NCBI RefSeq assembly: GCF_963675165.1 | Contig: NC_087382.1 | Location: 124,001-188,000 of the forward strand | From: Halichondria panicea | Taxonomy: Eukaryota; Porifera; Demospongiae; Suberitida; Halichondriidae | Direction: 5' to 3' | DNA: 64,000 nt | Shown: positions 14,024 to 45,666 of the stretch, in pieces | Layout of the letters: the number at the start of each line of letters is the position of its first letter | Numbering within the stretch: position 1 is the stretch's first letter | Program-made: the position numbers and the translations under genes | Notes under the pieces: generated by a model | Seen by the model: the letters and a program-made list of their open reading frames with translations, nothing else | Told to the model about the DNA's origin: nothing | The model's database searches: none

Positions 14024-14359
14024 GTTTTTTGTGTTTCGTATGGCATTCACAATAATAATAATCTTATATACGTCAAGAGTCAGTGTCACTACTGTAAAAT
14101 AATGAACAAGTATCATACATGCATGTATGCAAGTAGCCTCGATTCAAGGCCGATTAAAATACGTATTTTAATCGGCCTTGAATCGAGGCTAGTATGCAAG
14201 TATAGAGTGTCTCAGACTAGTACTGTGTTAGTGTGTAGATCTACATGCATGCATGCATTTCATATGTATAGTTTTAGGAAAGCTGATACTATAATTATTT
14301 GGTAGACTATATACGACACACGCTGCTATTCACGATTGAAGTACAATTTAATATTATAG
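14024..14359. other. spacer between NLR gene and transposon chain
   Basis: It holds a 58-bp palindromic MITE (14134-14191). The last 60 bases (CACGCTGCTATTCAC, GAAGTACAA) weakly match the lipase intergenic repeat at 51755-51785, suggesting that the lipase intergenic unit originally began here. No coding signal is seen. Confidence 0.4.
14125..14200. mobile_element. palindromic MITE with 9-bp target duplication
   Basis: A 58-bp perfect palindrome (14134-14191; ends TAGCCTCGAT and ATCGAGGCTA, centre ACGT) is flanked on both sides by GTATGCAAG (14125-14133 and 14192-14200). The ends match a second, 97-bp copy at 33426-33522. A 9-bp duplication is typical of Mutator-like elements, so a MULE-mobilised MITE is likely. 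Confidence 0.85.
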
Positions 14360-14363
14360 CCAG

Positions 14364-15501
14364 TGTCATAAAATTTTGGGTCCCCGGGCCTAGAATGTTA
14401 ACAGTTAAGCCCCCCAGGGGGTCCAAACTGTTAACATTCTAGGCCCCCCACTGCGAGATTAGGCCCCCCTCTTCTGGAAGTCAAAGAGATATAATAATAT
14501 AGTAAGGTTAGCTCTATTTTATAGTTGACAAAGCATCAAAGAGACTGCATGCATGCAAAGACTCTGTATCAAAGTAGCAAAAGTGTTTGCATTATTATTC
14601 TATCATGGAATTCAAAGTGAAGGAAGATTTACCTTTCAAGTTACTCATGCTTTACCTATAAGAGTTAAATGCTTTGATGCAGCTCTGCAATGTTGGATCT
14701 GGCTGTAAGACAATCGATGATGTTGTTGCATAGCTATCGCCATATTTGCAACTTCGTGCTTACTTTCTCAGCCAAATTTCAGGACAAAAAGTATAAAGCA
14801 CACAATTTCAGTGCAAAGACAACAATTCATATCTTCCTCCATGTTTTCCTATACATAGAAGATGTAAATTGTTGTGGGGATGCTCCAATAGCATCACTGG
14901 CTCAGCTCTCAAGTAATGTGGAATCATAGATAGAAGTCAAGAGAGAAACTGTTGTATCATGGTGGAATCACAATAGCAGTTTCCTTTCGGGACAAGGGTA
15001 ATCTTGGACAGCCCTGACCAATTCGGGACAGTTGGCACCTATGTGCTTCGTACTGCATGAGGCCTGATTCATATAGAATGACATGGGCAGTGTGATGGCT
15101 GTGGACCAGTGGTATACTACTGTACATGCATGAAATGTGTATGTGTGCATTCAGTAACTGGCACTGCATAGACTGTGAAGACCATAGAAGACTGTATTGG
15201 TGTATTTTGAGAATGCACTGTCACATAATGTTACCGCTGTTGCGCTGTGTGTACTAGTATACACATTGCAGTCAACACAATTCCACCAACCTTATGATAC
15301 TGGAATACCATACTACATTATGTTCTGGTGGTTCAATTTCAATGCTTTTATGAAGCTCTATAAAATAGCACAATCAACCCCCACATTATGAGCAACAAAA
15401 TGTCAGAAAAAGACCAGGACTGTTAATGGGGGGCCTAAAATGTTAAAATTCTAGGCCCGGGGGGCCCCAATCTCATGGGGGGGGCCTAAAATTTTATGAC
15501 A
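14364..15501. mobile_element. element A, non-autonomous Ginger-like (1138 bp)
   Basis: The ends are TGTCATAAAATTTTGGGTCC and GGCCTAAAATTTTATGACA, the same type as C and D. Subterminal G/C-rich blocks contain CCTAGAATGTTAAC with its inverse. Flanks are CCAG (14360-14363) and CCGG (15502-15505). The interior 14480-15420 shares nothing obvious with D and has no recognisable protein; its short open frames are treated as chance. Confidence 0.8.
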
Positions 15502-15505
15502 CCGG

Positions 15506-16636
15506 TGTGTAGAAGTGATATGGGGCTCCCCCCCATTTCAGTGCCCCCGGGCCCTAAAACGCTAGCGATTTGGGGCCCCCCCACGGCCCTATTTCACTAT
15601 CGCGTTGAGGCCCCTCCAGGAATATGGGGCCCCCACTTATAACTTGCAGTGTAGATGGTATCTATATGCTTGTAGCCTCAGCCTCATGGTCTAAGTAAAT
15701 CTAGATGTCCCTTGCTGATTAGATCTTGCACAGTACTTACTCATAATTAGCTCTCTTGCTGACTAAGTGCAGAGTTTAATAACACCATGACTTGCAGGTG
15801 CTATTGGCTAATGTTAGGCTAGCTATACCAGAGCGGAAGATGTAGATCTATCCTCAATACTTTAACTGAACCCGAGAAAGTTGTTATGCCCCTGTTATCA
15901 GTTACGGAATAAATTACTGTTCCTTTAACTGGCTCTGTTCGTTAGATAATAAGAGATCATAGAGGGAAACACATGCATGCACACACAGAACATGCATGCA
16001 GAGTGAGACATACATTACTGTCATAGGAACAAAGACGAGCAGGGCCTCTTCACAACACAAGTAAACCATAGAGCCTTGCTCTACGTACATAGGGCTGAGA
16101 TAGAGGTAATAAAACACACATGGAAGAAAGAACAAGTGTGTCCACAGGTGGCTGACTACCATGCATCCTCCACAATTTCTTGCTCTTTGATTTGCAGTTT
16201 ATTCTCAACTTTGCCAGGAAAAGTTCTTGATAACAAAGTGCATGGGCTGCGGCTGCTGCTTGTATTCTCAGTAGTATATGCTCAGCCTATATGAATGCAT
16301 GCATGCATGCATGCATGTGCTGTGTATACAATGGCTATGTGCTGCCACACTGTAACGCAGGCCTTATTTTACATAATTATGGCTGCCTTATACTGTTATC
16401 GTCAGTGACCAAGCAGCACAGATTATAGGCTAGTAATATATTCTGTATTGGAGTTTAAATCTACATAAACATTATAGCCATTGATTCTCAACTCAACCTC
16501 CTATTACTGTTGTGCTGGCTTGACTCCACTGCTCAGAATAGACTTCTCTAGGGGGGGCCCTATAATCACTAAGGGGGCGTATACCGCTAGTGCAATGGGG
16601 CCCCCCCTTACACCCCAAATCGCTAGCGTTTTAGGC
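15506..16636. mobile_element. element B', left part (Ginger-like, non-autonomous)
   Basis: The left end is TGTGTAGAAGTGATATGGGG; a subterminal GCCCTAAAACGCTAGCGATT is mirrored at 16612-16636 as AATCGCTAGCGTTTTAGG. The right tip was displaced by insertion of C, D and E and is found at 26381-26420. The reunited length would be about 1.17 kb. The interior 15660-16540 has no recognised coding sequence but a GCATGC microsatellite near 16293. Confidence 0.8.
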
Positions 16637-16819
16637 CCGGTGTCATAAAATTTTAGGCCCCCCATGAGATTGGGCCCCCCCCGGGCCTAGAATTTTAAAA
16701 TTCTGGGCCCCCTCTTAAAAGTTTAGGCCCCCCTATTAAAAGTATCTCAGCGGTTATTATGATGCATCTCAAAACTTGAACAAGTACAACAACAGAAAAA
16801 CTAGCTATCTATTTGCAGT

Positions 16820-18084
16820 CTATTTGCAGTCTTTACAGTACCAGTCACTGAATGGAGCTTTCTTTATACGTGCACACTTCATGTGGTACCACCTGTCGCA
16901 GCCATCACACTGCACCATGTCGTTCCACGAGTCAGGCCTTATGCACTGGTAGCACGAAGCTACTACAGATACCCACACTATCTCACTTCGAGGGGTCTCC
17001 TGCCTTGATTTTGGGAACCTTGATAGTTTCTTCTTTTCAAAGCACCTTACCAAATGCCGTCTGAGTTTTTGCTGGTCCAGTGTCAGCGTGTTTAAAGAGT
17101 CTCCAACTAAGAGGTGGTATGCCCATGCAATAGCAAATAAGCCACAGTCATATGACTTTGTTGTTGTTGGACAGGCGGACACTCTGCCAGTAAACCAATT
17201 TCTTGACGTTGTGGTGGACTAAGTGTGGGATGGTAGAGCTGTAGTAGTTGATTTTCTACAGATCTAGGAAATTCCTTAGTGCCTGTCTGCAGGCTGTCAT
17301 ACACATAGACACTGCCTTCAATACAACTTGTCAGGATCCAGTGATGACGTTCTGGCACAAACAGTATATGCACTCCTAATATATAATAAAAAGAATTGTT
17401 TCATAATCTTGAGACAGTTACATAACTCACCTTGAACCCTCGTGCGCTTGTCCAAATCAATTGGGCGAAAACCAAGACGAAACTGCACTTTAAGTGACGA
17501 TTGCAACCCAGATGTTTTGAAGAATTGGCCACTTAAAAGCATCATTGCAGCATCCACATGCTTGTCAGACAGCATGCCTGTTGGGGCGAGTAGTATTTGT
17601 TTGACCAGGCCAGTAATACTTGGCTGTGATCATGCCCAATGTTCTGTTGACTCCCATATGACTTGGATCATGGATTGCTCCTATAATCCTTTTCCTCTGC
17701 TCCTTGTCTTCCACAACAAGCCTCTTCTCATCACCTTTTTTGAAAATGTAATACTGCATGTAACAGTATGTAGACACAAATATATAGTGATAACTATATG
17801 TATAATATCTAGGTAATTTATGGCTGGCAACTGTCTCTTACGGTAGATCCAACATAGTACAATTCTCCATCCACTGCATCAAAGCATTTAACTCTCTGCC
17901 TCAGGGAACGCTTGTCTTCTTTACTAAAGGATGAAGGGTACTCGTTCCTGCTTATGAGAGCATGAATAACTTCAAAGGTAAATCTTCCTTCACTTTTGGA
18001 TTCCATGGTAGATTTAGTAACATGCCTGCTAACATATTTGCTACTTTTATACACTCTCTGACAGGATCTGAGGTGAGGGTTCAC
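16820..18084 (-). pseudogene. Ulp1-PHD remnant plus first integrase exons in element C
   Basis: Minus-strand exons correspond to those of D: 18084-17854 (RVKCFDAVDGELYYVGST), then zinc-binding HDPSHMGV (17777-17600) fused by the deletion to the Ulp1 start MLSDKHVDAAM, then 17369-16820 with ERHHW, VYDS and the PHD finger. One base is missing just before the catalytic SYDCGLFA (plus-strand TGACTTTGTTG against TGACTCTTGTTG in D), which breaks the frame. The phase at exon end 17854 (ACC then GTAAG) is intact here, unlike in D. Confidence 0.75.
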
Positions 18085-18250
18085 AGATAACTAATAGCTA
18101 GAAGTCATAGTGTCATAACACTCCCTTTGCTTTGTCCATTAGTATCATGCATAGATAAGTCAGCTAATAGCCAGAAGTCATAGTGTCATAGCACTCCCTT
18201 TGCTTTGTCCATTAGTATCATGCAGCATAGATAAGTCAGCTAATAAGCGC
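18085..18250. repeat. about 75-bp tandem repeat in element C (2 copies)
   Basis: The unit contains CAGCTAATAGCCAGAAGTCA and CACTCCCTTTGCTTTGTCC. Two copies are present in C, against about three in D at 21380-21545. The copy-number difference between sister elements marks it as a slippage-prone subterminal repeat. Confidence 0.65.
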
Positions 18251-18609
18251 TTTTTGTTCCTGCAGAAAAGAGGGGGGCCTAATCTCACAGTGGGGGGCCT
18301 AGAATGTTAACAGTTTGGACCCCCTGGGGGGCCTAAACTGTTAACATTCTAGGCCCGGGGGGCCCAAAATTTTAAAATTCTAGGCCCGGGGGGGCCTAAA
18401 CATGGGGGGGCCCAAAATTTTATGACACCGGTGTCATAAAATTTTGGGCCCCCCATGAGATTGGGCCCCCCCGGGCCTAGAATTTTAAAATTTTAGGCCC
18501 CCTCTTAAAAGTTTAGGCCCCCCTATTAAAAGTATCTCAGCGGTTATTATGATGCATCTCAAAACTTGAACAAGTACAACAACAGAAAAACTAGCTATCT
18601 ATTTGCAGT

Positions 18610-21372
18610 CTATTTGCAGTCTTTACAGTGCCAGTCACTGAATGGAGCTTTCTTTATACATGCACACTTCATGTGGTACCACCTGTCGCAGCCATCACAC
18701 TGCACCATGTCGTTCCACGAGTCAGGCCTTATGCACTGGTAGCACGAAGCTACTACAGATACCCACACTATCTCACTTCGAGGGGTCTCCTGCCTTGATT
18801 TTGGGAACCTTGATAGTTTCTTCTTTTCAAAGCACCTTACCAAATGCCGTCTGAGTTTTTGCTGGTCCAGTGTCAGCGTGTTTAAAGAGTCTCCAACTAA
18901 GAGGTGGTATGCCCATGCAATAGCAAATAGGCCACAGTCATATGACTCTTGTTGTTGTTGGACAGGTGGACACTCTGCCAGTAAACCAATTTCTTGACGT
19001 TGTGGTGGACTAAGTGTGGGATGGTAGAGCTGGAGTAGTTGATTTTCTACAGATCTAGGAAATTCCTTAGTGCCTGTCTGCAGGCTGTCATACACATAGA
19101 CACTGCCTTCAATACAACTTGTCAGGATCCAGTGATGACGTTCTGGCACAAACAGTATCTGCACTCCTAATATATAATAAAAAGAATTGTTTCATAATCT
19201 TGAGACAGTTTACATAACTCACCTTGAACCCTCGTGCGCTTGTCCAAATCAATTGGGCGAAAACCAAGACGAAACTGCACTTTAAGTGGCCAATTGCAAT
19301 GATACTTTTAAGTGATGATTGCAACCCAGATGTTTTGGAGAATTGGCCACTTAAAAGTATCATTGCAGCATCCACATGCTTGTCAGACAGCATGCCTGTT
19401 GGGGTGAGTAGTATCTCTCTGTCATGTGCCGTGAGAGAGAGCTCATTGACCCACTGTACTTCGGTCTATGATAAGGTAAGAATAGTACAGTAAAGGTACA
19501 GTAACAGACAAAAGATAATTGATTGAGACACAACACTCACCTTCTTGAAAACATCCTTACTCTTACATTTGTTTGACTTAGGGTCTCTCTTTGGTGGCTG
19601 TGGGTCGTCTCTCTCTGGTGGCTGTGGGTCCTCTTTCTTTGGGTCGTCTTTCTTTGGTGGCTGTTGGTCGTCTTTCTTTGGTGGCTGTTGGTCGTCTCTC
19701 CGATCGCCTTCTGGTGGCTGTTTATTGTCTCTAGACAAGCTCCTTTCATTAAACAACTTCAGCCGACAGACATTCGCCTTCTTTTTGAGTATTTGACCAG
19801 AAAGGTTTTTTAGCTCATATAAGCCCTTACCTATATATACATATATAATTATATATAGTGCATGTGAATTCATTTTAGCTGTATAACATACAGGCTGTAT
19901 TACCTAAATCTCGGTTGATGAAATATGGACCTAGCCATCTTGAGTCCAGTTTTCCTCCCTTCCTCTGCTTTTGAGCAGTATTCTCCAGCAAAACCTTCAT
20001 ACCCACGCTAAGTGTGCTGACTTGCTGGTGTTTTCTGTCATACGTTTCTTTTTGTTTGCCTTGTGCTGACTTGATGTTGGCTTCAGCTGTTGTGAACACT
20101 TCTTCACGGCTCTTCAAAAGATGCTCAATAACTTCTTCTGGGGTTCTTTCTTCAGGCTGACCGGGCAGTAGCTCACTATCAATCGGCAAACGCATCTCAG
20201 CTTGGAAGAGCATGAAGTAAGGAGAATGCTTAATTGATGCCTGACGCGATGCCCTATATCCCATGAGAATCGTGTTGATCTTCTTGTCCCAGTTATCTTG
20301 GTTGTCATTCACAGTCTTAGCCAAACACCTATAGAAAGAGTCTGGTTAAACCGCTCAGTTAATCCATTTGTCTGAGGGTGGTAAGCGCTAGTGATTCTAT
20401 GCTGGGTGTTGGTTTTCTGGTACAACTGGGCTGAGAGTGAGTTGACGAATTCCCGACCCTGGTCAGTGATGATGACTTCTGCACAGCCCATTCTGCACAT
20501 AACCTATTAAGAGAGATTGATTTGCTGTAAATGATGTGCATAATAATTATTGCTATAGTGCACTTACAGAATAAAGGAATTTAGCTACTCCATGTGCTGT
20601 CTTGTCTGGTAGTGGGGCTGCTTCCGCCCACTTACTGAAATAGTCGGTGAGCGTTATGACATACTTGTTGCCCCTGGGTGTCTCTGTCAGAGGGCCAATC
20701 AAATCCATCCCAACTGTATGCCAAACCTTTGGTGTCACTGGTATTGGGTGGAGAGTCGATGCTGGTTTTAGTAGTCTAGGATTGGTACACTGGCACTTGG
20801 TACATGTTTTCACCTATAAGAAATAAGTAGATCATGCAAATACACTAAAAGCAATACTATTATAGTAAATTCCGGCTTCACTTACATATTCTTTGACTTC
20901 ATTTGTTTGACCAGGCCAGTAATACTTGGCTGTGATCATGTCCAATGTTCTGTTGACCCCCATATGACTTGGATCATGGATTGCTCCTATAATCCTTTTC
21001 CTCTGCTCCTTGTCTTCCACAACAAGCCTCTTCTCATCACCTTTTTTGAAAATGTAATACTGCATGTAACAGTATGTAGACACAAATATATAGCGATAAC
21101 TATTATGTATAATATCTAGGTCTCTTACGGGTAGATCCAACATAGTACAATTCTCCATCCACTGTATCAAAGCATTTAACTCTCCGCCTCAGGGAACGCT
21201 TGTCTTCTTTACTAAAGGATGAAGGGTACTCGTTCCTGCTTATGAGAGCATGAATAACTTCAAAGGTAAATCTTCCTTCACTTTTGGATTCCATGGTAGA
21301 TTTAGTAACATGCCTGCTAACATATTTGCTACTTTTATACACTCTCTGACAGGATCTGAGGTGAGGGTTCAC
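18610..21372 (-). pseudogene. Ginger-type transposase: integrase + Ulp1 protease + PHD finger
   Basis: Likely exons on the minus strand are 21372-21129, 21059-20886, 20813-20568, 20503-19904, 19830-19541, 19465-19223 and about 19168-18610. Domains in order: zinc-binding HDPSHMGV...CTKCQC; integrase core with GMDLIGPL (Asp), ITDQGREFV (Asp) and HPQTNGLTERFN (Glu); the chromodomain-like tail GLYELKNLSGQIL; a proline-rich linker of QPPKKDD repeats; Ulp1/C48 protease with ERHHW, VYDS and SYDCGLFA as the H-D-C triad; and PHD finger CYQC...CDGCDRWYHMKC...CKDC. Breaks: an extra C at the end of exon 1, a frameshift after QTLS near 20335, and a 26-base insertion near 19290. The integrase would cut and join DNA; the protease and PHD may process the protein or target chromatin. 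Confidence 0.8.
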
Positions 21373-21379
21373 AGATAAC

Positions 21380-21545
21380 TAATAGCTAGAAGTCATAGTG
21401 TCATAGCACTCCCTTTGCTTTGTCCATTAGTATCATGCATAGATATGTCAGCTAATAGCCAGAAGTCATAGTGTCATAGCACTCCCTTTGCTTTGTCCAT
21501 TAGGTCTAGTATCATGCATAGATAAGTCAGCTAATAGCCAGAAGT
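21380..21545. repeat. about 75-bp tandem repeat in element D (3 copies)
   Basis: Three near-identical copies contain AGAAGTCATAGTGTCATAGC and CTTTGCTTTGTCCATTAG. The matching block in element C has two. Confidence 0.7.
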
Positions 21546-21725
21546 CATAGTAAGTCCGTAAGCGCTTTTTGTTCCTGCAGAAAAGAGGGGGCCTAGAATG
21601 TTAACAGTTTGGACCCCCTGGGGGGCCTAAACTGTTAACATTCTAGGCCCGGGGGTCCCAAAATTTTAAAATTCTAGGCCCGGGGGGGCCTAAACATGGG
21701 GGGGCCCAAAATTTTATGACACCGT

Positions 21726-21890
21726 TGTCATAGGAATGAATGACTCCCCTAAATAATGACTCCCGGTCACTCCTACCTAGTCACCAGTGACTCCCGGTCA
21801 CTCACGCCTAGGAATAAATGACTCCCCCGGTCACTGACTCCTAGCCATGAATGACTCCCCCCTGGAAAAAATGACTCCCCCGAAATTTAT
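21726..21890. repeat. subterminal ATGACTCCCC repeats
   Basis: Around seven variants of ATGACTCCC(C/G) occur within 165 bases after the left tip of E, several linked by GGTCACT. The right end has inverted GGGGAGTCA motifs at 26309-26364. Subterminal arrays of this kind often bind transposase; this is inference. Confidence 0.6.
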
Positions 21891-22006
21891 ATACGAACAC
21901 TGATCCATAGAGCTAAAGAGACTTCAGGGGCTATACTAAGTACATCCTCAAAACCTGTCACAGTGTGACTATACAATCAAGCTCAAGACTGTTATTGCAT
22001 GCATGC

Positions 22007-22735
22007 TACAGTGCATCCAGTCTAAAGAGTAGAATACCAAAAATGTGTGAGTAGTTGTACTTAAATGTAAATATCTTATGATTGGAACATTTTTAAGAAA
22101 ATCTGCTGATACCATTGTGTAGGCGAATGAATAAGCTACAACATATCCAAAATTGTTTCCATGACAACATAAGGTGGTGGGTTTGTGGTGATTAATAAAA
22201 CAGTACCCAATTGTTATAGTGGGTAATCGGTTAGGGAGAGAAAAGGCCAACGGTTTCCGGCTAAGGTTTGGAACTTTGTCACAACATCTATAGATAGTTT
22301 GGCTATCTTATGAAAGATTTGATGTTACTTAAATATCTACACATCCTCCGCAGTGCTCAAAATTGCTAGTTTTTAGTGCCGTTTCGGTTAGGGAGAGATT
22401 TGAAGAAAATCTCATGGCTAAGGTCTAAAAATTACATGGAGTAAGCTTGAATAAATTGTCTAACTTTTGATAAGAAAAATTTTTCCGAAAATACTTTAGT
22501 TGCAGAGATAATTGATGTTACGTACCTTTTTTTACGATCACCCCCATTATCTCCTAAAATTATTTCCCACTACAACAACTTCTGGGGAAATATTTTTGAA
22601 TCATGTTGTAGCTTATTCTTTTACCTATACAATGGTATCAGCAGAATTTCTTAGAAATGTTCCAATCTTGAGATACATCTAAGTACAACTACTCACCAAT
22701 TTTTGTATTCTACTCTCTAGACTGGATGCACTGTA
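22007..22735. repeat. foldback repeat inside element E
   Basis: The arms 22007-22144 and 22603-22735 are imperfect reverse complements (ends TACAGTGCATCCAG and CTGGATGCACTGTA), with about 460 bases between. It is non-coding and may be a nested foldback element. The rest of 21900-23079 shows no coding signal. Confidence 0.7.
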
Positions 22736-23767
22736 TCTGTGAGAGACCTGTTTAATACAAATGTTATATAGATCTAGTTTAAATGTATAACGTATTGATT
22801 ATAATTACAGCTGTTCCTTACTGTAAACTGGTTCAGTCTAGCTACGCTATCAGTTAGTACCTATAGTACTTATAGTTATACTACATTGTACACTCTGTTC
22901 ACATTTTCACATGTCTCACGGTCGTCACTGTAAAGCAAAACTTATAATACAACAACATCCATCAAAATAACTTATATTAAATAGATCTACAGTGCATGAA
23001 AACAAACAAAACAACAGTGCAAATTAACAGTGTATAAACAAAAACAGCTAGTGGAAGATAACGAAATGCTAAAAAAATTCTATCTAGATCTACAAGTAGG
23101 ACAAAACCAATCTCCAAGTGGAGATAATTTAATACGAACACATTTATAATGATACCACACATTACACGTATCGCACTGGACCATTTCATCATAACAGTCA
23201 GGGCGGAGACAAGGGCAGTATATCGTAATTACTATACTGGAAAATCTTTCTAGTCTCTTGCGGCTACTAACATCTTTTGACTTTGGAAATCTTCTGAGTT
23301 TCTCATTTTCAAAGCAACGCACAAGATGTGGCCTCATTTTGTCTTCATTTAGGGTGATGGTATCCAGATTGTCTCCTTGCAATGCGTGGTATGCAGCGGC
23401 AATTGCAAACAAACCACAGTTGTTACTGCCACTGCTCTGCTGTTGAATGGAGGCCACAGACAGTAACAGCCCATTGTGCGCTATTAAAGGCTTATACATC
23501 TGTGCGATTTGCAGCTCAGCACTTGGCTCCAGGTCTTTCCCATATTGGAAGCAGCTATCAAAGAGGAAAAGTTCCCCCTTGATGAGTGCTGTCGCAATCC
23601 AGTGATGCCTCTCTGTTACAAAGAATATCTGCACGGCTGTATAGGATATAATTAGAATTATTATGTACATGTATATACCAATACTATAATAATACTTTAA
23701 GTAGAAATTATACCTGTGGCTTCACTACTAGTGACTGCAGGAAAGGACATCTTCTGAACCAGAAGAG

Positions 23768-23918
23768 TACACAGTAAAAACAGATATGTTATAATAGCAT
23801 AAAACATCTCAAATAAAATGCATCATTTGAAATTTAATAGAAATGACATAAATTTCTGTCATTTTAACACTAAAATACGATGATGCATCCCATATAACAT
23901 ATGTGTTTTTGCTGTGTA
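23768..23918. mobile_element. MITE with CACAGTAAAAACA ends (copy 1)
   Basis: The ends are TACACAGTAAAAACAGATAT and, reversed, TACACAGCAAAAACACATAT, 151 bp in all. It splits the Ulp1 exon of element E between the coding for QFPNIKGCYS and the following LVQKMSF. A sister copy is at 34642-34780. Confidence 0.75.
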
Positions 23919-24238
23919 GAGTAGCAGCCTTTAATATTTGGAAATTGCATTCTCATTAGTTTGTGGGCAGCATACATATGACGGTCAGAAAGCATCCCGC
24001 TCTCAGCAAGAACTACATCCTTGTCTCCCGTCCTCAGGTCCAAATCCTTCACCCATGCAGTAGCTTGAATTCTGTCGAATGTGCACACAATAATTATAAT
24101 GAACGGTATAGTGTGCACATATTAATAATAATTGTAATTAACGATAGCTCCTGTTAACAAGTATATATAACTATATACCTTTCTTGTTACAGACTGAGTA
24201 GTCCTTTGCTTCTTCAAAGGTGGCTCCATAGAGGATGC

Positions 24239-24432
24239 AGTCTTAACGTGAGAGAAGGGGGCGTCTCGCTTGCGAGAGGAGTGAGCATCTGGCTTGTGAG
24301 AGGAGGGGACGTCTGGCTTGTGAGAGGAGGGAGCGGCTGGCTTGTGAGAGGAGGGGACGTCTGGCTTGTGAGAGGAGGGAGCGTCTGGCTTGTGAGAGGA
24401 GGGGGCGTCTGGCTTGTGAGAATAGGGAAAAT
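24239..24432 (-). repeat. 24-bp coding minisatellite in element E
   Basis: About eight tandem copies of a 24-base unit encode (S/P)LTSQTLPP-like octapeptides on the minus strand. Copies differ by a few bases. It lies in the linker between integrase and Ulp1, the same place where D has its QPPKKDD repeats. Confidence 0.8.
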
Positions 24433-26380
24433 CACAATTTTTTCCCCACAGCTTCTAAAAATGGAGTGCATAATTATAAAGAAACATTAAATTAATATCG
24501 TAAAGAGAAATGTAATGTAATTATAATTAGCTTCAAAATCTAGAGACACATGCATTATACCTTGCTTGGGTCTTTCACAGGAGTACTCGTCAAAGAAGGG
24601 TTTAACTGATCGAGAGATTCATCGTGATGGTTGTCTGATAATTCGGAAGGATCCGAGAGAGAACTATGTTGATCCAAGAGAGGTTTTTCGGAGTCTGGGC
24701 CATGGTAATGCTTTAACCGCTGTTGGTTAACAGCCTTTTTTAGGGTCTTTCCAGTCTTAGGGTTGGCAATCTTAAAGACTCCCTTGTCCAAGCACTCCAC
24801 CACCCTTGTCTCCCTTCTTACATTCCCTGGCTGAATTCCTCAGCCAGACCAAACTCCCAGTCTTAAACACCTATATAATTAGAAAAATGACATGGCTATG
24901 ACATTAAACGAGTAATGAAAATAGCCATAGTACGCTCATACAATGATATAGCCTGCTCACCCTCTTGTCTGCATGCTTCCGATCATAGTACATCTTGTCC
25001 TTTTCTTGGGCATTGTCAATGTTCTTCTTGGCTTTGCTGTGGATATCATCCTTTAACTTTGTAACAGCTCGAGCGTGGGTCATAATGGCACTAATATCCC
25101 AGCTCTGCTCAAGTTCACCCTCGCTGCCTAACTCCAGTTGAATAGGGAGTACAGGTTTCCTGCATGTGGAACGTTATAATAATTATGCATGCATGCCAGA
25201 TTATCATGTAATTATTATAATAATTATATGAACAACTCACCGACAGAACATCAACTCGAAAGGTGAATACTTCGTTGCCTTTTGCTTACTCGTCCTATAA
25301 GCAAAGAGAATAGCGGGCAAGTGGTAGTCCCAGTCGGTCTGTGAGTCATTCACATTGTTTGAAGTGTTTGATTGAAACGTTCAGTTCGCCCGTTGGTTTG
25401 TGGGTGGTATAAGCTGAAGTGACCCTGTGCTCTGTTCCAGTGAATCGAAAAAGCTCTGTGTTGACCTGATTAACAAACTCACGGCCTTGGTCCGATATCA
25501 ACACCTCACAAAACCCAAACCTGCGTGCAGGTATAACCATCGTCATTAAATACGTGTTATTATAATTATGTGTAGAGATGCATGTGATTACAATTTCGCA
25601 CACATGCATAGCTTACCGACAAAACAAGTTGTACAGGAACATTAATTGCCACTCCAAATGCAGTTTTGTCAGGGAGTGGGGCTGCTTCAGCCCATTTGCT
25701 AAAATAATCGACCAATGTTACCACATATTTGCTGCCATTGGGTGTAATCGGCAAAGGTCCTATCAAGTCTATGCCAACCTATAAAGTGAATTACATAATT
25801 ATAATTAATATATGATTGTGCTCAAAACAAATCTGTCATTATAATTATTATGCAATGCCATTATAGTATATATATACCTGATGCCAGATTTTGGGTTGTA
25901 CAGATATCGGATGGAGTTTGGCATTTGTCTTTACAAATGCTGGGTTCATTCTCTGGCACTGGCTGCAGTTCTTTACATACTCTCGGATATCCTCCACCAT
26001 CAACTTCCAGTAGAATCTAGAACATATCTTGTCTATAGTTCTATCTCTTCCAAAGTGGCCACCAGCTGTTCCTGCATGCATGCATCCATTGGTATAATAT
26101 AGATTACAACATTTATAGGTCTACATTCCAGCTGTCACTTGCTGTCTACTACAGGATGAACACTTGCTTCATTGCTACCTTGCTACTACTAACCTTGCTC
26201 TTCATCCTGCATGGCTCTTCATTCTCTACTATGTCTATGAGGAGTGCATGAATGTACTCTTGCTACTGATGGCAACAGGTCAACATTGGCGGGAACAAAC
26301 ATGCGCATAGGGGAGTCATTTACTCCTGGGGGAGTCACCCATACCTTAGGCCGGGGAGTCGTTCATTCCTCTGACACCGG

Positions 26381-26420
26381 GGGCCCCAAAATATGGGGGG
26401 GGGCCCATATCGCTTCTACA
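26381..26420. mobile_element. element B', displaced right tip
   Basis: Reverse complement begins TGTAGAAGCGATATGGGCCC, matching the left tip of B' at 15506. It is preceded by CCGG (26377-26380) and followed by CCGG (26421-26424). Together with 15506-16636 it completes B'. Confidence 0.85.
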
Positions 26421-26424
26421 CCGG

Positions 26425-34280: not shown

Positions 34281-34641
34281 GCTGTGCAGGCAGAATCACA
34301 TGGAGGGAAGAGTAGGAAATGATGACCATGCATGATTGTGTTGCTATAAAGGGTGACAAAAGTCTAGCTGCTGCATCGATTAGTAGAGCCTTGCAGCTCT
34401 CTTCTCACTTCTTGCAGCTACCAATATAATAGCTAACATTCTAGTGCAGAGCCATGCATCTATACTATAGTGGCAATTAACACTCCATGCATGGACACAT
34501 TTGGCTACGCACTCTTCTGAAAAGGCTGCAATGGCATTCCAAGTAAGCAAAACTAGTCTCATTATTTTGCAAATCCACGAAATGACATAAACACACTACC
34601 GTGTTATACGGCGTATACCTCGCTTGCGCATTCGCACTAGC

Positions 34642-34780
34642 TACACAGCAAAAATACTGAGATGTATCATCATCGTATTTTAGTGTTAAAATGACAGAAA
34701 TGTATGTCATTTCTACCTTAAATTTCAAAAGATGCGTTTCATGTTTTATGTTACTATAACGAATGTGTTTTTACTGTGTA
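34642..34780. mobile_element. MITE with CACAGTAAAAACA ends (copy 2)
   Basis: The ends are TACACAGCAAAAATACTGAG and, reversed, TACACAGTAAAAACACATTC; an internal GACAGAAATGTATGTC is shared with the copy at 23768. TAGC stands on both sides. The rest of 34281-34877 has no coding signal. Confidence 0.7.
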
Positions 34781-43154: not shown

Positions 43155-45666
43155 ATGCAGCTGCTAACGTTGGTGGTGTGTGTTGCTGTGGTGATACTAC
43201 TCGAGCAATGTGAGGCTACCCCATCACCCATTGTCCTCAGTAAGTGAATTGGTTCACATGTCTAAGAAGCTTAATAATTACGTGTATTTGAGTGTAACAT
43301 ACTTATCCATATTTAGAATGTAAAAATCTAATGATTTTGTCTTTCTACTTGAGAGAACCTAATTTCCCCACAATGTGCATGATCTTTAGTTCCGGGTGTG
43401 ATGGGTTCCCAACTCCAAGTTAAGGATCAGACCTCGAGTACATTGTGTTCCACTGGTCGCAAATACAAGGAGCTATGGATATCTCCATTACGAGTCACCC
43501 TCTACAATATCTGTGCCAAGAGAGAGCTGCCGTAAGTAATGGCAATGCAGCTTATAGTAGTACAGCTAACGCTTTACGTAATAGAAATTTGCTTGTAGTT
43601 ATGTTATAGTTAGAAAATGGGCATGAGGTATCTATGTGTTATAGTGTCCCAAAGCTCGAGGAATGAGGGACACTATAACTATAGATACCAAATGCACATG
43701 TTCTAACTGATTTAGATCCCAAAACCTATTGGCTACTAGAAATGCACTAGCTTAGCAACAGTCAACCTATATAAACAGCCAACCTAGCAACTGCATCATT
43801 AAACTAATAGTTGGCATCTCTGTGTCTCTAACTAAATCTGTATATTCAAGTGAACCCTGTTCCTCCACCTCAGTTTGATCATAGATAGATGGGACAAAAT
43901 TATAGTCTTAGCTCCACCCACAAAACGGAAACATCCAGCTCCTCCCCCCCAGTTTTGCAGCAAACAAGCCCAGCACACTTACCAAGAAACGAGCGGCTCG
44001 TACTACTCTCACAAAGCGAAAGGAAGACACTTAAGCTATAATTTGCAGCAAGCAAGCCCAGCAAACGAGCGGCTCCTATACTACTCTTGAACAAAGTGAA
44101 AGAAACTGTAGGAAGAAGCCAAAGCTAGAATCCCAACACTTCCATACATCCAGCTCCTCCCCTGCATGCAGCTTTGCAGCAAAAAAGCACAGCACACTCC
44201 CCAAAAATGAGCGTCTCCTACAAATACTCTCGAACAAAGCCAAAAAAAGAAAGTAGAGCTTCTCTCTTTCATTCTAGTTCTGTTATTATATTACTAGACA
44301 AAGCATCTAGCTACAATAATTTTTATGTTATCATTGCAAAATGATTGTACATTGTATTGTAGGTACAATGTTGTAGTTTGGAGCCCAGAGCAATCTATAG
44401 TACTGGTACTATATAGCTCATAGTTCCCTGCTAAATACACTCAAATGGGATCTAATAGTCAGTAACATCACTATATAAAAGTGTTAGCATGTCTATTTAA
44501 CAGATTGAGATACGACGCAAACACTAACTCCTACCACAACAATACTAAAGTGAAGATCCATGTTCCTGGATTTGGTGGGACATCGAGTGTGGAATATCTC
44601 AACCCTGGATGGATAAATACACTCCCGTATTTTCACGACACGGTGGAATACTTTGTTGATCGAGGCTACAAAAGAGGAAAGACTATTCGAGGGGCTCCTT
44701 ATGACTGGAGATTGGCTGCAGGTGCGAAATCCAAATAAAATAAAAGCAGGAGAGGGTAATTTTGTGTAAAGCTTATAAGAAATCTCCTATAGCTATACTA
44801 TTTATTATGTGTTTGAAGTAACCTCGTTATTCATTACCCTCACAGATGAACTTGAGAAGAGAGGATACTTCCATCGTCTCAAGACGATGATTGAAGACAT
44901 GTACAAAACCAACGGTAATACCAAGGTGACCCTGGTCGTACACAGTATGGGTGGTCTCGTATCCCTTCACTTTCTGACTGGCTTCAGTGGGATTAACCAA
45001 GCATGGAAGGATAAGTACATCCATGCGTACGTTACATTGTCAGCTGCTTGGTCTGGTGGTGCAGCGACTGTTCAAAGTGTCATATCTGGTTACCATGGTA
45101 TTCCTGACTTGCTGTTATTTGCGTACGATTTGATCAGCGACTTTATTGTTCCGATTGGTCGTACATTCGAGAGTCTTCCTTGGTTGTTTCCGAAGCCCTC
45201 AGTGTTTGGCAATGTTGCTTTTATATCAACACCGTCCAAAACATACTCAGCTAACAATTATGAACAGCTGTTTCGTGACATCAATGCTCCAAATGTTTAT
45301 CGGGCTTTTCAAGGCGTGCAAGGTTTAGTATCGGATTACCCCGCTCCCAATGTACCAACATACTGTTTCTATGGAGTTGGTGTACCTACCCCGGAAAAAT
45401 TCACCTATTCAAAAGATCTGACACCTAGTAATGCTATTGGCTTACGACCAGTTGTTAAGAACGGAGACGGAGACGGATCAGTAAACACTATTAGCTCTAG
45501 GGTATGTCACAGGTGGTCAAGTATGCCTTCCAAATATTCGTTCCGGTACAAGGCCTTCAACAAAGTAAATCACGCCAAGATTGTGTCTAACAGCAAAGTT
45601 CTCGGAGACATTGGTGCAATAGTTGGGGCACCTCCAAAACGTAAAAGTTGGTGGGCCAAAAGATAA
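43155..45666 (+). CDS. L8: secreted group XV phospholipase A2/LCAT-like lipase, intact
   Basis: The exons are 43155-43239, 43390-43531, 44504-44721 and 44846-45666; all phases fit, giving 421 aa. Signal peptide: MQLLTLVVCVAVVILLEQCEA. Then PGVMGSQLQV (the conserved start of the LCAT domain), VPGFGGTSSVEYL, RGYKRGKTIRGAPYDWRLAAG (the oxyanion/lid region of group XV PLA2), VVHSMGGLVSLHF with the nucleophile Ser182, DGDGSVN with Asp358 and VNHAKIV with His391. Human group XV PLA2 and LCAT are about 410-440 aa, so the length fits. It likely hydrolyses or transacylates phospholipids in lysosome or outside the cell. The basic tail PPKRKSWWAKR is unusual for the family. L6 is its frameshifted near-twin. 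Confidence 0.9.
43609..43707. repeat. imperfect hairpin in intron 2 of L8
   Basis: The arms 43609-43650 and 43666-43707 are inverse copies with some mismatches (core TTATAGTGTCCC and GGGACACTATAA). It is MITE-like. Confidence 0.65.
43905..44235. repeat. three imperfect tandem repeats in intron 2 of L8
   Basis: Units of roughly 90-130 bases share TTTGCAGCAAACAAGCCCAG, GAGCGGCTC and ACTACTCT(C/T). They are diverged and non-coding. Confidence 0.5.

Follow-up and report, generated by a model that had tools for sequence, protein, structure and literature searches.

Earlier work exists both on the self-insertion of P elements and on nesting in Dictyostelium. We analyzed a chain of five transposons, named A, B', C, D and E, at 14360–26424 of a 64-kb stretch of the genome of the sponge Halichondria panicea (positions 124001–188000 of contig C6; the host genome comprises 131 Mb in 39 contigs), hereafter called the window. 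This chain, and others in the same genome, very probably arose by stepwise insertion at duplicated CCGG sites, combined with an additional preference, blind to family, for existing ends or for the loci concerned.

Judged by their TGT...ACA ends, CCGG duplications and transposase domains, D and E follow the plan of Ginger1 elements. The integrases of this group are relatives of Gypsy retrotransposon integrases, 12 Ginger1 families have been described in Hydra, and the reported targets are CCGG in 75% of cases and CCGT or ACGG in 24%, a specificity that is already known and was published in 2010 (PMC2836005). Ginger1 elements are recognized by terminal inverted repeats of about 40–270 bp, by GPY/F and YPYY motifs, and by a C-terminal OTU or Ulp1 domain, joined by PHD in some. 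The sponge elements resemble them in their ends and in 4-bp duplications of CCGG or CCGT/ACGG, as well as in the H2C2 domain, a probable integrase core, the Ulp1 and PHD additions and the occurrence of non-autonomous copies (PMC2836005). The difference lies in their arrangement: "nested" and "tandem" are absent from the main text of that paper, in which chaining is not described under those words. Among the papers listed by the literature searches, none reports Ginger1 arrays, judged by titles and abstract openings, and a marked attraction to existing ends has apparently not been described in Ginger1-type elements.

Comparable arrangements are reported from other systems. IS30 of Escherichia coli has a dual choice of target, inserting either at a preferred hot-spot sequence or beside its own inverted repeats, but it is a bacterial copy-out-paste-in element with a 2-bp spacing between joined ends (PMC9333248), whereas the sponge elements keep 4 bp and mix families, their mechanism being read from genome sequence only. 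Arrays of SaTar, a non-autonomous MULE (Mutator-like element) of guayule and rice, likewise grow by adjacent insertion and mix unrelated elements (PMC5907723), and both SaTar and the mMITEs of pineapple (PMC8449440) form clusters of intact elements joined by a preferred target. These are Mutator-type elements, which use a microsatellite target and make 9–10 bp duplications outside it (PMC5907723, PMC8449440), whereas in the sponge one CCGG serves as the target and elements also nest within terminal repeats. Nested long terminal repeat (LTR) retrotransposons of plants share non-random nesting (PMC6911290) and related integrases (PMC2836005), but nest mainly in 3' untranslated regions, LTRs not being commonly targeted, and an exact tip-to-tip spacer is not mentioned in the abstract of PMC6911290. 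The closest parallels are the end targeting of IS30 and the SaTar arrays.

CCGG Targets and Tip-to-Tip Junctions

The borders and order of the five elements, and the spacers between them, match the original prediction base for base (positions in the table below). The C-D-E block fills one CCGG of the right terminal repeat of B', where it is flanked by TTTTAGGC-CCGG on its left and CCGG-GGGCCCC on its right; the counterpart of this site in the left repeat is empty, and the right tip of B' is displaced beyond E. An exact 4-bp spacing had been claimed throughout, and it holds at the other joins; between A and B' the distance is 4 bp if measured to the first TGT and 6 bp if measured to the usual B tip, because the left end of B' reads TGTGT, with a TG that other B tips do not have. 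The CCAG left of A and the CCGT between D and E probably changed after insertion, since the partner copy of each is CCGG.

Across the genome, 400 tips were listed with their flanks: 225 of family f1, to which A, C and D belong, 61 of family E, 72 of family B and 42 of a further family, X, first met as the partner in two junctions (L024 and L032). Tips of f1 were matched exactly, those of E, B and X partly with one mismatch. CCGG adjoins 301 of the 400 (187 f1, 24 E, 49 B and 41 X), the strong preference that had been predicted rather than random 4-bp targets. Counting distinct flanks once, the proportions are 132/170 for f1, 23/60 for E, 40/63 for B and 37/38 for X. Both tips were available for 109 elements (79 f1, 21 E and 9 B), and 88 of these carry identical 4-bp flanks, in keeping with the proposal that insertion leaves CCGG at both tips. 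The identical pairs include the asymmetric CCGT/CCGT and ACGG/ACGG, which therefore reveal a true duplication, something that CCGG alone could not prove. Outside the core, f1 shows a mild flank preference and B a strong one (TACCGGTA). Palindromic flanks beyond CCGG were considered as a cause and rejected, left and right agreeing 115 times against 116.7 for shuffled partners (53 pairs). The stretch at 1.31–2.46 Mb of contig C1 looks repeatedly duplicated, as it holds many f1 tips whose flanks are identical or almost so.

We took as a junction candidate any listed tip preceded by ACA at a distance of exactly 4 bp. This gave 40 rows (24 f1, 5 E, 7 B and 4 X), corresponding to 28 distinct sites. 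For 20 of these, recognized tips flanking the spacer confirmed a junction; three are in the window and the others at L021–L025, L027, L029 (two), L030–L035, L037, L055 and L056. Junctions thus recur at separate loci. In L021, L035 and L055 the tip is short or damaged on one side. Among the remaining sites, the partner tip was not recognized in five (L026, L028, L038, L039 and L040), L036 was rejected, its nearest B-like tip being 11 bp away, and two of family E were not fetched (C2:2185859 and C16:4684008). Twelve junctions carry a listed tip on both sides, A-B' being excluded from this number owing to its additional TG, and 16 of the 20 remain without family X. A spacing control used the tips of f1, E and B, 358 in all: TGACA or CTACA occurs 30 times at gap 4 and 8 times at all other gaps together, and the looser ACA alone gives 36 at gap 4 and 36 at nine other gaps together (at most 14, at gap 7).

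Several families take part, as predicted, and 15 of the 20 junctions join different ones; same-family junctions number 5, against 6.4 expected under random mixing (P 0.70). A comparison of L021–L040 and the three junctions of the window with each other (18 confirmed junctions, L055 and L056 being left out) gave no pair whose alignment on both sides exceeded 136 bp. The closest pair, L027 and the D-E junction of the window, is 94% identical over 136 bp and 97% over 274 bp, and its f1 members differ in length (~1.36 and 3.29 kb). Judged from these alignments, the compared junctions do not appear to have been copied from a single event.

Junction Excess and Competing Explanations

According to the original prediction, the CCGG recreated by each insertion would suffice to build arrays, and it is on this point that the prediction fails. 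With 255 elements (copies with an identical flank counted once) and ~124,000 CCGG sites, a total extrapolated from 74 sites in 78.5 kb, 0.27 junctions would be expected if CCGG sites were chosen at random, rising to 0.67 when flank preference is included, against the 20 found. Even if the element number is doubled, the expectation is 2.7 (P for at least 20 = 1e-11). Simple renewal of CCGG is too weak by ~30-fold, and something besides it therefore favors end sites. Counted per site, tips are used ~7 times as often as CCGGs within 2.5 kb outside (12 vs 4 events, 95% confidence interval 2.1–30), so that insertion beside existing ends exceeds the general-target rate, as in the IS30-like mode (a likeness of mode, not of family). 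Internal CCGGs of terminal repeats are also occupied, in 13 cases (6 in B, 4 in E and 3 in f1 repeats); two further loci, L061 and L062, are uncertain. The B site takes most of these hits and f1 few, and the ends are therefore not equal.

Several points weigh against the favored explanation. There are 47 element pairs closer than 10 kb for 4.9 expected (a number that includes junctions, nestings and the duplicated C1 stretch), and 4 non-touching outside neighbors within 2.5 kb (5 if the A-B' junction is included) for 0.63 expected. Because these non-touching neighbors also exceed expectation, part of the excess is a general closeness of elements. The repeats of f1 contain several CCGGs, yet account for just 3 of the 13 internal hits. 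Element counts, being based on tip patterns, are minimum values and make the expectation approximate; the sites behind the CCGG total come from 20 hand-picked places; family X was chosen via two junctions with f1, so that its inclusion is not neutral; and no transposon activity was seen.

The best surviving alternative, which keeps a real if less than even chance, is that certain CCGGs were hot beforehand, through chromatin, methylation or flanking sequence, and were hit twice, the first insertion creating no attraction. Random mixing of families at the 20 junctions is what such a site-level cause predicts, and the excess of non-touching neighbors is likewise in its favor. Large differences between sites do exist: of the 400 listed tips, 15 (8 f1 and 7 B) lie against copies of a dispersed repeat that carries CTATAGTACCGGTACTATAG (core GTACCGGTAC), compared with 190 unoccupied matches (up to 3 mismatches). 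The flanks fetched for 14 of these 15 tips (L041–L054) represent either one side of the repeat or the other, and in a few, such as L041 and L044, a single insertion may have been copied. However, this repeat fits the flank preference by a factor of 17 for f1 and 231 for B, so that much of its attraction as a hot site can be put down to sequence, whereas the flanks at element tips show no such fit (0.4–2.1 per side). Hot sites also sit poorly with the occupation of internal repeat CCGGs at several loci and with the near-uniform clustering at larger distances (11 pairs vs 9.9 expected at 10–30 kb, 40 vs 34.5 at 30–100 kb), which weakens broad regional hot zones at 10–100 kb as a candidate. A copy of the dispersed repeat lies in the window at 44340–44460; there the core ACCGGT has become ACTGGT, with loss of the CCGG, and this copy shows no match to the window elements.

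A transposase bound to its own terminal repeats might instead drag an element specifically to resident relatives. Such tethering, which we consider improbable, would account for terminal repeats being hit as well as tips, but the same-family junctions show no excess, although 20 junctions give little power, and the idea survives this result if one transposase serves all families. It is very unlikely that the chains stem from duplication, or from moving composite units, without separate insertions: C and D are indeed close relatives in tandem, but most junctions unite different families, and the compared loci share too short a two-sided alignment, with f1 members of unequal length in even the closest pair. 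Assembly artefact or chance is scarcely credible, because the junctions have recognized ends on both sides at separate loci, although the bare decamer ACACCGGTGT, rejected as a chain counter, is not enriched (63 occurrences vs 284 for its reversed control) and many of its occurrences are due to chance, the control lacking CpG and thus giving no fair expectation.

Structure and Coding Remains of the Elements

The element ends are long GC-rich repeats, and the usual tips, TGTCA in f1, E and X and TGTAG in B, conform to the terminal motif TGTNR. A and B', little over 1 kb each, are taken as non-autonomous from length alone; copies of A are found genome-wide at 88–95% identity across most of its length. 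D and E carry broken frames on the minus strand. Ten of their open frames were each searched separately against Pfam, and two had no match. The H2C2 zinc-binding domain of Gypsy-like integrases scores above cut-off in both elements, while the DDE core gave rve or rve_3 matches in 3 of the 10 frames, all below the curated cut-off, its catalytic motifs being read by eye. The frame of D with the YPYY-like stretch, a motif likewise read by eye, has as its sole Pfam match one below cut-off to an unrelated model. In E, a YPYY motif was not located in translations read by eye, and Ulp1 was not called in the scan of separate frames, PHD being above cut-off.

Table 1. Features of the element chain in the window, with occupied internal CCGGs of terminal repeats across the genome
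Feature	Position	Strand	Basis or remark
CCAG, left target copy of A	14360..14363	.	sequence; one change from CCGG, right copy CCGG
Element A, 1138 bp, family f1, non-autonomous	14364..15501	.	tips TGTCATAAAATTTT...
CCGG common to A and B'	15502..15505	.	
Element B', left part, family B	15506..16636	.	usual tip TGTAGAAG at 15508, after additional TG
Unoccupied CCGG in left terminal repeat of B'	15547..15550	.	counterpart of occupied site in right repeat
CCGG in right terminal repeat of B'	16637..16640	.	left target copy of C-D-E block
Element C, 1787 bp, family f1	16641..18427	.	shorter relative of D
CCGG common to C and D	18428..18431	.	
Element D, 3290 bp, family f1	18432..21721	-	Ginger1-type transposase remains
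Ulp1 protease (Peptidase_C48) and PHD finger of D	18613..19191	-	Pfam, 3.5e-6 and 2.4e-6, both above cut-off
C-terminal integrase stretch of D	19878..20345	-	GPY/F-like WLGPYF, by eye; no Pfam match
Integrase core (DDE) pieces of D	20312..20813	-	rve, rve_3 below cut-off; motifs by eye
H2C2 zinc-binding domain of D, YPYY-like stretch upstream	20835..21378	-	Integrase_H2C2 E 2.6e-12; YPYY-like by eye
CCGT common to D and E	21722..21725	.	
Element E, 4651 bp, family E	21726..26376	-	broken Ginger1-type transposase
PHD finger of E transposase	23083..23721	-	Pfam E 1e-8
Integrase core and H2C2 pieces of E	25349..26120	-	H2C2 E 3.9e-18; rve below cut-off
CCGG right of E	26377..26380	.	right target copy of C-D-E block
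Displaced right tip (tail) of B'	26381..26420	.	
CCGG right of B'	26421..26424	.	
Internal hits, B repeats	window; C12:2165423; C5:3564336; C5:4969249; C7:3229751; C14:4745087		
Internal hits, E repeats	L057–L060		
Internal hits, f1 repeats	L063; L064; C1:2418098		

Repeats of about 24 bp lie within the frames of E (24224–24452, SHKPDAPS-like stretches) and of D (19583–19724, PPKKDDQQ-like stretches). Inside E, inverted repeats at 22007–22735, with arms of 39 and 73 nt that are 92% and 89% complementary, perhaps represent a small foldback element nested in it, and away from the array a 140-nt piece (34641–34780) is 82% like the interior of E (E positions 2043–2194). Near A, a short palindromic sequence with TAGCCTCGATTCAAGG arms is found at 14134–14191; a similar palindrome lies at 403–454 of L039, between two CCGG sites beside B-type tips.

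Proposed Growth of the Arrays

Repeated insertion at duplicated CCGG sites is well supported as the array mechanism. In the scenario that we favor, stepwise insertion with an additional family-blind preference, Ginger1-type cut-and-paste elements insert at CCGG, sometimes at CCGT or ACGG, and duplicate this target. The CCGG at the tip of an earlier element, or inside its terminal repeat, would then be open to later insertions from any of the families, and arrays would grow insertion by insertion, each with a single 4-bp spacer. We infer that the elements move by cut and paste, in which order they inserted and what causes the additional preference, most likely either a transposase drawn to existing ends without discriminating between families or a lasting accessibility of the site.

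By analogy with IS30, the elements could have two target modes, one for a CCGG site and the other a family-blind docking on resident ends, with insertion beside or inside them. We regard this reading as tentative and somewhat doubtful. If it is true, each insertion would make new docking sites, and arrays would grow by self-attraction instead of mere target renewal. If the elements do land on the ends of their relatives with a 4-bp spacer, these junctions would offer a simple and countable readout of target capture. Such a process would also explain how arrays of mixed families form without a microsatellite target, and would predict where new insertions fall.

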